NCBI GenBank assembly: GCA_947474995.1
Contig: CANJNJ010000026.1
Coordinates: 1 to 45,115, forward strand
Length of the DNA stretch: 45,115 nt
Direction of reading: 5' to 3'
Source: Opitutaceae bacterium
Lineage (GTDB): Bacteria; Verrucomicrobiota; Verrucomicrobiia; Opitutales; Opitutaceae
Part shown: one piece after another, positions 27,814 through 32,032 of the stretch
Numbering within the stretch: position 1 is the first letter of the stretch
Layout: each line of letters opens with the position of its first letter
Translations under genes and position numbers: made by a program
Notes under the pieces: generated by a model
What the model saw: only the letters and a program-made list of their open reading frames with translations
Database searches by the model: none
Told to the model about the DNA's origin: nothing

Positions 27814-28329
27814 TCAAAGTTTCAAAACCTTTACCCCCACGTCGGCGAGCAAAGGCGCGACGAGCGGATCATTGAGATAGTCGGCCCGGTAACGGATTTC
27901 CGCGATGCCGGAAGCGGCCAGAATCTTCGCACAGTTGATGCAGGGATAATGGGTGACGTAGGCGACACAGCCCTCGACCGAACTACCCCGCCGCGCCGCG
28001 TCGGCGATGGCATTTTGTTCGGCGTGCACCGTCGCCTGCTCGTGGCCTTCGCGGAGGCGCGAGACGTGGGGCGTGCCGGGGAGAAAACCGTTGTAACCGG
28101 CGGCGACAATCCGGTTTTTCCGCTCGCCGCCCGTCACAATCACACAGCCGACATGCAGGCGCTCGCAGTTCGAGCGCGACGAAATCAACACGGCCGTGGC
28201 CATGAAATATTCGTCCCACGAGGGGCGATGGGGAAAATTACTCGCCGCGTCCGCGATCAGATCGACCGGCCGTTCGGGCACGGCCGGAACGGTCGGAGTG
28301 TCAGGCGCGGGAATCGCAGATAGGCTCAT
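27814..28329 (-). CDS. Deoxycytidylate (dCMP) deaminase family protein
   Basis: The 171-residue product has RPSWDEYFMATAVLISSRSNC, HVGCVIV, GYNGFLPGTPH, the zinc/catalytic motif T-V-HAEQNAIADAAR, and THYPCINCAKILAASGI with the C-x2-C zinc ligands. These are the marks of dCMP deaminases, which convert dCMP to dUMP for thymidylate synthesis in the cytoplasm. The start at 28329 is chosen by family length; the frame runs further upstream to 28425, over the start of the divergent methyltransferase. ComEB-type competence deaminases look alike, but no competence genes are nearby. Confidence 0.87.
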   Translation of the reverse strand: MSLSAIPAPDTPTVPAVPERPVDLIADAASNFPHRPSWDEYFMATAVLISSRSNCERLHVGCVIVTGGERKNRIVAAGYNGFLPGTPHVSRLREGHEQATVHAEQNAIADAARRGSSVEGCVAYVTHYPCINCAKILAASGIAEIRYRADYLNDPLVAPLLADVGVKVLKL

Positions 28330-28414: not shown

Positions 28415-29059
28415 ATGCACCGCACGCTTCAACCCGAATTGCTCGACTCGTTACCGTCCGATCACCCCGATGCGCTGCACAATCGCCGGGACCTGCGGCT
28501 CACGAACCAGATTGTCGGAAACCACCGGTGGATGGAGCGGGTCCTGCCACCGCTGCTGTGCGCCAGCGACCGCGTCTTGGAAATCGGTGCGGGCACCGGC
28601 GAACTCGGCCGCCGCCTCCACCGCGCGGGCGTCGCGCTCGACGGACTGGATCTGTGGAGCCGCCCCACGGTCTGGCCCGGCGACCGTCTTTGGCATCAGG
28701 CCGATGTGCGCACGTTCGCCGGCTACGCGCCCTACGCCGCGGTCTGCGGCAATCTCATCTTCCACCAATTCTCCGGCGCTGACCTGGCGAGCTTCGGTGA
28801 ACGCTTTCGTCGTCAGGTTCGCGTGGTGGTCGCCTGCGAGCCCGCCCGCCGCCGCGTCTCCCAAATCCTTTACCGCACACTCGCGCCCCTCTTCGGCGCC
28901 AATCACGTGAGCCTCCACGATGCTCACGTCAGCATCGCCGCGGGTTTTCGTGACGACGAACTTCCGCGGGCGCTCGGTCTCGACGCCGCGACGTGGGAGG
29001 TCCGCTGCACGACTACCGCGCTCGGGTTGTATCAGATGATTGCGATTCGGCGCGCCTGA
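28415..29059 (+). CDS. Class I SAM-dependent methyltransferase of a type III PKS cluster
   Basis: The 214-residue product has motif I VLEIGAGTGELGRRL preceded by NHRWMERVLPPLL, then LDGLDLW, YAAVCGNLIFHQFSG and VVVACEPARRRVSQILY. The fold is UbiE-like. The stop at 29057-29059 lies 2 bp before the FAD oxidoreductase start, and the type III PKS follows, so it is probably a tailoring enzyme that methylates the polyketide ring or chain. The start at 28415 (MHRTLQPELLDSLPSDHPD) is preferred; the open frame further upstream overlaps the dCMP deaminase gene antisense. Confidence 0.85.
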   Translation: MHRTLQPELLDSLPSDHPDALHNRRDLRLTNQIVGNHRWMERVLPPLLCASDRVLEIGAGTGELGRRLHRAGVALDGLDLWSRPTVWPGDRLWHQADVRTFAGYAPYAAVCGNLIFHQFSGADLASFGERFRRQVRVVVACEPARRRVSQILYRTLAPLFGANHVSLHDAHVSIAAGFRDDELPRALGLDAATWEVRCTTTALGLYQMIAIRRA

Positions 29060-29061
29060 CG

Positions 29062-30081
29062 ATGCCACCCCAGTCGGTCGAAATCATTGGGGGCGGGCTG
29101 GCGGGTCTGTCGTTGGGTCTCGCCCTACGGCGCGAGGGGATTCCGGTCACGATTTTCGAAGCGGGCGAATATCCCCGTCACCGCGTGTGCGGGGAATTTA
29201 TCACCGGTTTGGCCCCGTCGACCATCGCGCGTTTAGAACTCGCCCCGTTCCTCGTCGACGCGCTGCGACATCACGACGTCGCCTGGTTCATCAACGAAAC
29301 GCCCTCCCGGATTCAACGGTTGCCGGCGCCCGCGCTCGGCCTGAGTCGGCATCTCCTCGACGCCCGGCTCGCGGCGGCCTTCGTGGCGGCGGGTGGCGAA
29401 TTGCACACGCATACCCGCGTCACCGATCTCGGTGCAAATCCAGGTCGCGTCTTTGCTTCGGGCCGACGCCGCGGCGGGTCGGCGTGGCTGGGTCTCAAGG
29501 TCCACGTCCGTGGCCTCGGGCTCGAGCGCGACCTCGAGCTTCACCTCGGGGCAAACGGCTATGTCGGTTTGGCCCGGATCGAGAACGACGCCGTCAACGT
29601 CTGCGGCCTTTTTCGGCGCTGCACCGCAACCGGCCGCGGGCCCGAGCTACTGCTCGCCTATTTGCGACAAGCGGGGCTGGACGCGTTGGCCACGCGCCTC
29701 GAAGCCGCCGCGATTGAGGCCGACTCTTTTTGCGCTGTCGCCGCCCTCAGCTTTGATCGCGGGGTTCCCGCTGCCGATCGCGTTTGCCTCGGCGACGCGG
29801 CTGCAATGATTCCCCCCTTCACCGGGAACGGCATGGCGATGGCCTTTCAAAGTGCCGAACTTGCGCTCGAACCGTTGATCGACTTCGCGCAGGGGAAGGC
29901 CACCTGGCCCGCCGCGTGTCACGCGATTCAGGCCGCGCTCCACCGCCGTTTTCGCCTGCGGCTCGCGACCGCACAAGCGCTGCATCCTTTCCTGCTCCAA
30001 CCGCGCCGGCAGCGCTGGCTCGCCGCGCTCAGCCGCGCCCGGCTGCTGCCCCTCACCCCGCTTTACGCGACCCTCCACTGA
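29062..30081 (+). CDS. FAD-dependent oxidoreductase of a type III PKS cluster
   Basis: The 339-residue product has an N-terminal dinucleotide-binding site VEIIGGGLAGLSLGLALRRE, an acidic EAGEYPRHRVCGEFI segment and a later RVCLGDAAAMIPPFTGNGMAMAFQSAELA, the GD motif of the geranylgeranyl-reductase/PHBH-like flavoproteins. Such enzymes hydroxylate or reduce aromatic or lipid products. Gene order (methyltransferase, FAD enzyme, type III PKS) with a 2-bp gap before and 47 bp after marks one operon. It probably modifies the PKS product. Confidence 0.87.
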   Translation: MPPQSVEIIGGGLAGLSLGLALRREGIPVTIFEAGEYPRHRVCGEFITGLAPSTIARLELAPFLVDALRHHDVAWFINETPSRIQRLPAPALGLSRHLLDARLAAAFVAAGGELHTHTRVTDLGANPGRVFASGRRRGGSAWLGLKVHVRGLGLERDLELHLGANGYVGLARIENDAVNVCGLFRRCTATGRGPELLLAYLRQAGLDALATRLEAAAIEADSFCAVAALSFDRGVPAADRVCLGDAAAMIPPFTGNGMAMAFQSAELALEPLIDFAQGKATWPAACHAIQAALHRRFRLRLATAQALHPFLLQPRRQRWLAALSRARLLPLTPLYATLH

Positions 30082-30128
30082 AATTCGTGCTCCAACCTGG
30101 TTAAACAACCATTGGCCAGGCCCCCAAT

Positions 30129-31160
30129 ATGTATCTCCACGCCCTTTCAACCGCCGTCCCGACCGCCGCTTTCACGCAGGGCGATTGCTGGGAAATCGCG
30201 CAACGCTCCAACGTTCGCCAACGGCTCAAGCGCCGTTCGATGTTGATTCTGCAGACCATCCTGCGCGGTGATCACGGCATCGCGCGACGCCATTTCGCGG
30301 TGCCGGAGATCGACGCGGTCTTCGATCTAACGGCTGATCAATTGAACGCGGCCTTTCGCACCGAGGCGCCCCGCTTGGCTGGTCGCGCCCTCGCGGGTGC
30401 CTTGGCTCAGGCCGGCGTCAAAGCCACCGAGTTGGACGCGTTGCTCATCTGCACCTGCACGGGATATCTCTGTCCGGGCATCACCAGCTACGTGGCGGAG
30501 CAGCTCGGACTGCGGCCGAATGCCTTCCTGCAGGATCTCGTCGGCCTCGGCTGCGGTGCGGCGATCCCCACGCTGCGCGCCGCCAGCCACATCCTCGCCG
30601 CCCAACCCAACGCGATTGCCGCCTGTGTCGCCGTCGAAGTGTGCTCGGCCGCCTTCTATCTCGACGACGATCCCGGGGTCCTCATCAGCGCCTGCCTGTT
30701 CAGCGATGGTGCGGCCGCGACGGTTTGGCGCGGCACGCCCGGGCCCGATGGGCTGAAGGCATTTGAATTTAACACGACCCACCTGCCCGCCGAGCGCGAC
30801 AAACTCCGGTTTGAGCAGCGCGACGGCAAACTTCGCAATCTACTGCACCGCACCGTGCCCGAGCTCGCGGCGGGCGCGGTCGCGCAGCTTTGGCGGGAAC
30901 GTTCGGCCCGCCCGGTGTCGCGGGTCGTCGCCCATTCCGGCGGCCGCGACGTGCTCGAGGCCCTGGCGCCGGTGCTCGAACCGCACTCGCTCGCGGCCAG
31001 CACGAATATACTTCGCGACTACGGTAACATGAGCAGCCCCTCGGTGCTGTTTGCGCTCGCCGAAACAATGAAGGACGGACCGCCCAATGGTACGGGCGAT
31101 TTCTGGTTGGTGAGTTTTGGCGCGGGCTTCAGTGCGCACAGCTGCCGGATTGGAAAGTAA
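30129..31160 (+). CDS. Type III polyketide synthase (chalcone/stilbene-synthase family)
   Basis: The 343-residue product has the whole catalytic triad: Cys142 in DLVGLGCGAAIP, His269 in VVAHSGGRDVLEAL and Asn300 in RDYGNMSSPSVLFAL. ICTCTGYLCPGITSYV and LGLRP also match the family, as does the C-terminal FWLVSFGAGFSAHSC. Such homodimers condense malonyl-CoA units onto an acyl-CoA starter and cyclise the chain, giving alkylpyrones, alkylresorcinols or phloroglucinols. Starter and length cannot be read from the sequence. It is the last gene of a three-gene cluster; a strong palindrome (31173-31228) follows. Confidence 0.92.
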   Translation: MYLHALSTAVPTAAFTQGDCWEIAQRSNVRQRLKRRSMLILQTILRGDHGIARRHFAVPEIDAVFDLTADQLNAAFRTEAPRLAGRALAGALAQAGVKATELDALLICTCTGYLCPGITSYVAEQLGLRPNAFLQDLVGLGCGAAIPTLRAASHILAAQPNAIAACVAVEVCSAAFYLDDDPGVLISACLFSDGAAATVWRGTPGPDGLKAFEFNTTHLPAERDKLRFEQRDGKLRNLLHRTVPELAAGAVAQLWRERSARPVSRVVAHSGGRDVLEALAPVLEPHSLAASTNILRDYGNMSSPSVLFALAETMKDGPPNGTGDFWLVSFGAGFSAHSCRIGK

Positions 31161-31172
31161 ACACGTCAGCGA

Positions 31173-31228
31173 GCCGACGCCAGCCGGAGACTGGCGCGAC
31201 GTCGCGCCGGTCTCCGACCGGCGTCGGC
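31173..31228. repeat. Long palindrome, GCCGACGCCAG/CCGGTCTCCG family
   Basis: Two 28-nt arms (31173-31200 and 31201-31228) are complementary at about 25 positions with no loop, the mismatches being mostly G-U compatible. It starts 13 bp after the PKS stop and may end the transcript. Related halves are at 33108-33130 and 42608-42655. Confidence 0.75.
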
Positions 31229-31276: not shown

Positions 31277-32032
31277 ATGGCCGCCCAACTCGAAGAACTC
31301 GTCGCCTACTGTGACCAGCGCACGCGTCGTACCGCCTTCAAGGATGCGCCCGGCGCATTTAACGGTCTGCAGATGGCCAACAGCGGCCGCGTTACGCGCA
31401 TCGGCGCCGCAGTCGATGCCGGCGTGGTCCCTTTCCTCAAGGCGGTCGACGCCGGCGTGGATTTCCTGATCGTGCATCACGGCATGTATTGGGACATGCC
31501 GCGGCCGATCGTGGGCGGGCCCTATGCCCGGATCGCCACGCTCATCCGGGGCAATTGCGCCCTCTACTCGAGCCACCTGCCACTGGACGGTCATCCGGAA
31601 ATCGGCAACAACGCGCTCCTCGCCCGGGAAGTCGGCCTGCGCCCCTCTCGGCCGTTTCTGGTTCGGGACGGCGAGGCCATCGGCTGCATCGCGAAGCACA
31701 AGGGAACGCGCAATGCGCTGCGCGCGAAACTCGAAAAGCGCTACTGCCGTGTCATCGCCATCGAGTTCGGCTCACCCAACCCAGGTGCGGTGGCCTTCTG
31801 CAGTGGCGCGGGCAACAGCGCCGTGCCTGAACTCGGGCCCGCGGGCGTCGACACGCTGGTCACGGGAGAATTACGCGAAGAGTGGTTCAACCGGGCCCAG
31901 GAGGAGAAATTGAATCTCTACCTCTGCGGCCATTACGCGACGGAAGTCCACGGGGTCAAAGCCCTCGCCGCCGAGCTCGCCCGCAAGTTCAAACTCCCTT
32001 GGACGTTTATCGGGACCGACAACCCACTTTGA
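31277..32032 (+). CDS. Nif3-like dinuclear metal centre protein
   Basis: The 251-residue product follows the Nif3/YbgI/DUF34 pattern: NGLQMANSGRVTRIGAAVDAG, FLIVHHGMYW (two His metal ligands), NCALYSSHLPLDGHPEIGNNALLA, VTGELREEW and LNLYLCGHYATEVHGVKALA (last His/Glu ligands). These proteins form toroidal hexamers with a two-metal site; proposed roles include hydrolase or metal-insertion functions, and none is proven. It appears alone, with aroQ 74 bp downstream. Confidence 0.88.
   Translation: MAAQLEELVAYCDQRTRRTAFKDAPGAFNGLQMANSGRVTRIGAAVDAGVVPFLKAVDAGVDFLIVHHGMYWDMPRPIVGGPYARIATLIRGNCALYSSHLPLDGHPEIGNNALLAREVGLRPSRPFLVRDGEAIGCIAKHKGTRNALRAKLEKRYCRVIAIEFGSPNPGAVAFCSGAGNSAVPELGPAGVDTLVTGELREEWFNRAQEEKLNLYLCGHYATEVHGVKALAAELARKFKLPWTFIGTDNPL

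Follow-up and report, generated by a model that had tools for sequence, protein, structure and literature searches.

Three adjoining genes in the genome of an Opitutaceae bacterium, encoding a methyltransferase (MT), a FAD-dependent flavoprotein (FAD) and a type III polyketide synthase (PKS), raised the question of whether they form one biosynthetic unit and what kind of product the unit would make. The window, which is the whole stretch of DNA analysed, was 45,115 nucleotides long. The cluster was real and conserved and its general kind was known; the new part was a distinct clade of the synthase. For the product, we lean towards a three-gene operon making a tailored phenolic lipid, a methylated hydroxy-alkylresorcinol or (hydro)quinone lipid.

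Organization of the cluster

The features of the cluster site were as follows.
27817–28329, minus strand: dCMP deaminase-like flanking gene, divergent, left boundary of the site; homologs near family loci
28415–29059, plus strand: class I SAM-dependent methyltransferase, 214 residues (P0001); SAM motif LEIGAGTGEL; homologs upstream of the PKS
29062–30081, plus strand: FAD-dependent oxidoreductase, 339 residues (P0002); group A monooxygenase/halogenase-like fold, likely a ring hydroxylase
30129–31160, plus strand: divergent-clade type III polyketide synthase, 343 residues (P0003); C142-H269-N300, FGAG in place of FGPG
31173–31228, no strand: dispersed palindromic repeat (z -5.83; matches in the genome), outside the pathway
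31277–32032, plus strand: Nif3-like flanking gene, right boundary of the site; homologs near family loci

The three genes were located on the plus strand with gaps of 2 bp (MT–FAD) and 47 bp (FAD–PKS), in agreement with the original prediction, and would be co-transcribed. The predicted interval, which extended to 31228, was retained for the genes but not for its last 68 bases, as this tail holds the palindromic repeat. The repeat gave 46 listed matches in the same genome, including its own place and an inverted self-match, and was rejected as an operon-specific terminator because it is one of a family of repeats dispersed in the genome. The terminator scan gave 4 sites against 2.8 in shuffled sequences, and the promoter scan gave 0 sites (shuffled mean, 0.4). 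The start codon of the MT was supported by its relatives, most of which aligned from residues 1–3, and the MT matched Pfam only at an E value of 0.02. The flanking genes are those that we take, from their sequences, to be dCMP deaminase-like and Nif3-like.

Family and fold of the polyketide synthase

The PKS was a stand-alone protein of the thiolase fold without a carrier domain. It passed the Pfam thresholds of the chalcone/stilbene synthase family, with 44.4 bits for PF00195 and 31.1 bits for PF02797 (cut-off 27 each). The predicted Cys-His-Asn triad was intact as Cys142, His269, and Asn300, and the triad was found in all sequences of the residue comparison. The triad alone also occurs in KAS III enzymes, and an FGAG loop is KAS III-like. 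The KAS III model ACP_syn_III_C scored 41.6 bits on the window PKS. A KAS III assignment was nevertheless set aside as the main reading. The best PDB sequence matches were type III PKSs, headed by RppA (1u0m), and the 50 structural matches listed were type III PKSs, with no KAS III chain among them, which is compatible with a fold relation to KAS III. Furthermore, the best NCBIfam model was DpgA (NF042429) with 129.9 bits, below its equivalog cut-off of 425 and more than twofold above the best KAS III model (59.0 bits). A second, remote KAS III/PKS-like gene (G000:C97:13210-14052, a 371-residue frame) was located elsewhere in the same genome.

The G-F-G-P-G loop near the C-terminus is the usual signature of type III PKSs, which are defined by fold and chemistry. 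The proline of this loop, at position 332, was replaced by Ala in all 116 Opitutia sequences, 78 of 79 proteobacterial-type sequences (one gap), and all 10 sequences of a third group, and was Pro in the 23 sequences of clade A, RppA, 4b0n, DpgA, and the Paludisphaera borealis enzyme; the chalcone synthase segment compared did not extend that far. Because the loop proline was replaced by Ala, the window PKS lacks the signature and is filed, on its sequence, as a member of a divergent clade and not as a canonical type III PKS. Two further positions were invariant in 205 of 205 sequences. Position 237, corresponding to the second gatekeeper Phe265 of chalcone synthase, was Asn (Ile or Met in clade A), and position 115, corresponding to Met137, was Cys. 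In addition, Ala175 of the window PKS corresponded to Thr197 of chalcone synthase. Cys115 and Ala175 are small residues that we take to have a role in the acyl tunnel.

In a PKS tree of 73 sequences, and in agreement with a matrix of pairwise identities, the window PKS was placed in a clade of 50 with a support of 87, which is not decisive. The clade was composed of Opitutia (30 sequences, support 99), a group mainly of Proteobacteria (13, support 99), and the third group, of Verrucomicrobiota (7, support 87). RppA, DpgA, chalcone synthase, the Ectocarpus enzyme, the P. borealis operon PKS, and clade A of Deinococcus and Verrucomicrobiota were placed on the other side, in trees that were quick searches with DpgA, RppA, chalcone synthase, and others on long branches. 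The outgroup sequences (L217, L221, and L230) were remote thiolase-fold relatives. A topology holding the Opitutia PKSs with the P. borealis PKS was rejected (p-AU 1.8e-6, quick tree). The original prediction had expected few characterised type III PKSs from Verrucomicrobiota, and none turned up in the open-licence papers searched; these papers also gave no characterised product for any member of the window's PKS clade. As far as the searches show, the clade is distinct and uncharacterised.

Conservation of the three genes as a unit

When 200 genomes of the window's family were searched with the PKS, 177 gave a match at an E value of 0.001. The match was strong (E 1e-20 or better) in 107 genomes, the window's own included, by a hand count that leaves out a 29% match of G032, and was weak or partial in the remainder; the synthase was present in about half of the family genomes tested. 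Within the window's genus, 7 of the 11 genomes searched, including its own, had a strong match, and 4 had none. The neighbourhoods of 86 loci with a PKS identity of at least 45% were compared. Of the 106 other family genomes that matched strongly, 85 supplied these loci, G066 supplying two, and contig-edge fragments, lower-listed matches, and near duplicates were left out. L118 (PKS of 27%) and L120 (no PKS) were excluded, while L117, with its PKS split in two frames, and the decayed L119, counted as MT-PKS, were kept.

The order MT-FAD-PKS was conserved in 75 of the 86 family loci. Ten loci, one of them decayed, had MT-PKS without the flavoprotein gene, and one had the PKS alone, an extra copy in a genome with the complete set. 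Thus 85 of 86 loci had an MT homolog ahead of the PKS, one of these 85 homologs being a decayed fragment. Outside the family, 387 genomes of the phylum were drawn with PF00195, of which 132 had a match, and 80 loci were fetched. The PKS identity was at least 45% in 32 of these, all from the same order or class, and 25 of the 32 shared the gene order; one had PKS-MT-FAD, one had FAD-PKS, and five had the PKS alone. Homologs lying apart in relatives, which the original prediction had named as counter-evidence, were accordingly found for a minority of loci only, namely these five and the one that lacked only the MT beside the PKS.

The genomes of these six loci were searched further. Four encoded homologs of both the MT and the FAD protein, and neither homolog was found genome-wide in the other two (G315 and G407). 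In G318 and G390, the MT and FAD genes adjoined each other on another contig, apart from the PKS; the three genes were on three different contigs in G528, and the FAD homolog was beside the PKS in G207. Searches for MT (E 1e-8) and FAD (E 1e-15) homologs were negative in every one of 34 PKS-free family genomes, selected from about 92; all these counts come from related genomes and are not independent events. The conserved order, the co-occurrence, and the empty sites described below strongly support a real small biosynthetic unit, as had been predicted.

Comparison with hidABC and planctomycete operons

The gene content of the srsABC cluster of Streptomyces griseus presumably resembles that of the window cluster. 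The hidABC (hierridin) genes of cyanobacteria and an MT-oxidoreductase-PKS operon of Planctomycetota share with the window the three gene kinds, their order, and their direction, according to two papers (PMC10896814 and PMC8086630) and the annotation of a P. borealis plasmid. The window thus has the hidABC-type gene order, but its PKS did not group with the hid-type PKSs, which were placed in a separate clade with P. borealis standing in for HidC. When compared with the P. borealis operon, the one operon of that layout on which the planctomycete comparison rests, the PKS was 27.6% identical over 275 residues and the FAD protein 27.8% over 316 residues; the MT gave 30.5% over 118 residues at an E value of 0.1, which is not significant. 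The planctomycete and cyanobacterial operons were reported to be 48–55% identical to each other (PMC10896814).

In the same planctomycete study, 58 of 96 type III PKS genes of Planctomycetota ended a hidABC-like MT-oxidoreductase-PKS operon, and four of six PKSs expressed in C. glutamicum gave pentadecyl- or heptadecylresorcinols (PMC10896814). The four productive PKSs came from three-gene operons or variants, and nothing was detected for the two from outside such operons. Addition of the G. maris methyltransferase and oxidoreductase led to a single methylation, which the study places probably on carbon, and the role of the oxidoreductase was left open there (PMC10896814). By analogy, the planctomycete operon appears to be the best functional model for the window cluster. 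For strain ASA1 (Opitutales), a T3PKS region is reported from antiSMASH, grouped with clusters that have little similarity to known ones. The genome taken to be that of this strain (G013) carries the three-gene cluster at 60% PKS identity, and the reported region is probably this cluster.

Proposed pathway and alternative explanations

The most likely product, judged by analogy, would be a methylated, ring-oxidised lipid of the alkylresorcinol type. In this pathway, the free-standing PKS would load an acyl thioester starter on Cys142, add malonyl units, and close a resorcinol-type ring. The flavoprotein would hydroxylate the ring made by the PKS, and the methyltransferase would methylate a ring oxygen or carbon to give the methylated hydroxy-alkylresorcinol or (hydro)quinone lipid. 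The substrate or starter, the ring type, and the order of tailoring in this scheme, and any biological role of the product, are what we infer. The starter and ring type may differ, because the best model was the malonyl-primed DpgA and Asn replaces the second gatekeeper. The original prediction of a methylated, oxidised product remains plausible for a resorcinol-type ring by analogy with the hidABC and planctomycete operons, but the window PKS lies outside their clade.

The same DpgA and RppA matches favour a small aromatic of the phloroglucinol, dihydroxyphenylacetate, or naphthol type, made from a malonyl starter, lacking a lipid tail, and modified afterwards by oxidation and methylation. 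DpgA was 30.9% identical to the window PKS over 333 residues, a better match than the hid-type PKS. However, the score was far below the DpgA cut-off, no dpgB/C/D-like genes were noticed on reading the neighbouring ORFs, and DpgA was placed outside the window's PKS clade (support 87/88, with DpgA on a long branch). The replacement of the chalcone synthase residues Met137 and Thr197 by Cys115 and Ala175 also argues against a malonyl starter, yet DpgA shares the Ala at position 175. We regard the small aromatic as unlikely. A somewhat less likely product still is an alkyl-α-pyrone, which would be released as a triketide or tetraketide lactone without aldol closure and tailored as a pyrone by the FAD protein and the MT; the fold of the associated oxidase and the parallel with hidABC would, purely by analogy, favour an aromatic ring instead.

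The nature of the flavoprotein bears on the oxidation step. Its fold was that of aromatic monooxygenases and halogenases in a structural comparison with a low-confidence model (pLDDT 64). If it were a halogenase or a reductase and not a hydroxylase, the product would be halogenated or reduced. The seven best structural matches were flavin halogenases (PltA, 25.6; ChlB4, 25.5), and the best NCBIfam model was a geranylgeranyl reductase (TIGR02032; 59.2 bits, below the cut-off of 158.8). On the other side, the Pfam Trp_halogenase family was not matched at 0.001, and monooxygenases followed within 3 Z units (VpIndA1, 22.9). The structural ranking is weak either way because of the pLDDT of 64, and a halogenase or reductase appears improbable, more so than the pyrone.

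A hydroxylase acting on the resorcinol-type ring may not be required in every lineage. The FAD gene alone was absent from 9 intact loci. On the PKS tree alone, whose outgroup did not lie on one side of a single branch, this pattern needs about 6 changes, of which well-supported branches force at least 3. In 7 of these 9 genomes, the search for another FAD homolog (E 1e-15) was negative; G141 had an FAD homolog beside a PKS fragment and G198 had one at 34%. Since several lineages keep the PKS and MT without the flavoprotein gene, ring oxidation seems to be an optional step. The flavoprotein was repeatedly absent but the MT was not, a pattern suggesting that the methylated product also has a use when left unoxidised.

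Relatives of the synthase outside the family

The window's PKS clade also occurs in many Betaproteobacteria, with no tested member among the open-licence papers searched. Plasmid pSBC2-3 of Caballeronia sp. SBC2 carries PKS-MT-FAD-ACP-KS, where ACP is an acyl carrier protein and KS a β-ketoacyl synthase (ketosynthase). Its PKS belongs to the same clade (43% identity) with the same clade motifs, and the MT family is shared (30%, E 5e-18). In contrast to the window, the beta- and gammaproteobacterial clusters mostly have the PKS first and often add ACP and KS genes, and the Caballeronia FAD protein is longer (419 residues) and shows weak similarity, with a pairwise E value of 0.004 and a family-profile score of 75 bits. 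No characterised product of these five-gene clusters was found in the open-licence papers searched.

A contig scan with the Caballeronia PKS first in the alignment gave at least 543 relatives. The best 80, ranked by likeness to Caballeronia and giving no abundance estimate for the clade, were by title largely Beta- and Gammaproteobacteria, with some Verrucomicrobiota and Nitrospirae. PKS, MT, and FAD were on one strand in 65 of these 80 loci, 45 of the 80 also having both ACP and KS, as counted from same-strand matches in the locus and not by strict adjacency. The others comprised 9 PKS-MT, 2 PKS-ACP-KS, and 4 PKS alone, and several were cut by contig ends. The added ketosynthase in these loci (L237–L316) was FabF-like, and the species labels of a few MAG records (L303 and L315) looked doubtful. 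The Caballeronia KS had five matches at 31–40% in the window's own genome.

Because ACP and ketosynthase genes are present in many proteobacterial clusters, carrier-bound starters are suggested for the clade. It is conceivable, but in our judgement rather doubtful, that the clade stands apart as its own subfamily of type III PKSs whose active site has been remodelled, with the second gatekeeper Phe changed to Asn, the loop proline to Ala, and Cys at 115. Fed by an acyl- or β-ketoacyl-carrier protein, it would provide Opitutia and Betaproteobacteria with phenolic lipids of a new class, methylated and oxidised on the ring, and perhaps quinones with redox activity. One product assignment would cover the whole clade and probe carrier-bound starters for free-standing type III PKSs. 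The product would also show whether hierridin-type lipids evolved on two occasions, each with this gene order.

Other relatives were more remote. The third PKS group of the clade, from other Verrucomicrobiota (L208–L216 and L229), was 33–38% identical to the window, with a weak MT match in 6 of 10 fetched stretches and an FAD match in none of the 10. Some clade A members of Verrucomicrobiota and Deinococcus held remote homologs of all three genes together with the PKS first; their PKSs were 23–29% identical to that of the window and differed in having the G-P-G loop and a histidine at position 175. Near others of the clade A loci, neither an MT nor an FAD homolog was found. The FAD protein of L191, a PKS-MT-FAD locus of clade A type, scored 145 bits with the family profile, more than that of any other locus searched that is not in the clade. 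DpgA and RppA, outside the clade, differed from the window PKS in the G-P-G loop and Phe at position 237, and DpgA adjoins dpgB/dpgC.

Cassette site and history of the cluster

The cluster was located between the divergent dCMP deaminase-like (left) and Nif3-like (right) genes. When homologs were counted anywhere in the sequence fetched around each locus, which reached at most about 6 kb on each side, the former was found in 51 and the latter in 46 of 85 family loci, so that more than half of the fetched loci were near the same housekeeping genes. Both flanking genes were present in 28 of the 34 PKS-free genomes. In 18 of the 28, the two genes were divergent neighbours whose matches lay less than 500 bp apart, forming an empty site; they were about 1.4 kb apart in 2 and separate in 8. 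Given these empty sites in PKS-free relatives, the cluster genes come and go largely together, as a cassette.

A recent arrival in the window's lineage was unsupported, with the flanking housekeeping genes at up to 51 of the 85 loci and the PKSs in one subclade, which contained 13 of 13 family sequences and 17 of 18 class sequences of the tree. The PKS of L183, from the same class, grouped with the proteobacterial PKSs, as did those of the Verrucomicrobiota records L303, L307, and L313. Horizontal transfer elsewhere, outside this lineage, is therefore likely. Decayed or split copies were found in L119, L117, and G141 (G141:C11:20558-21891), and are perhaps losses in progress or assembly errors.
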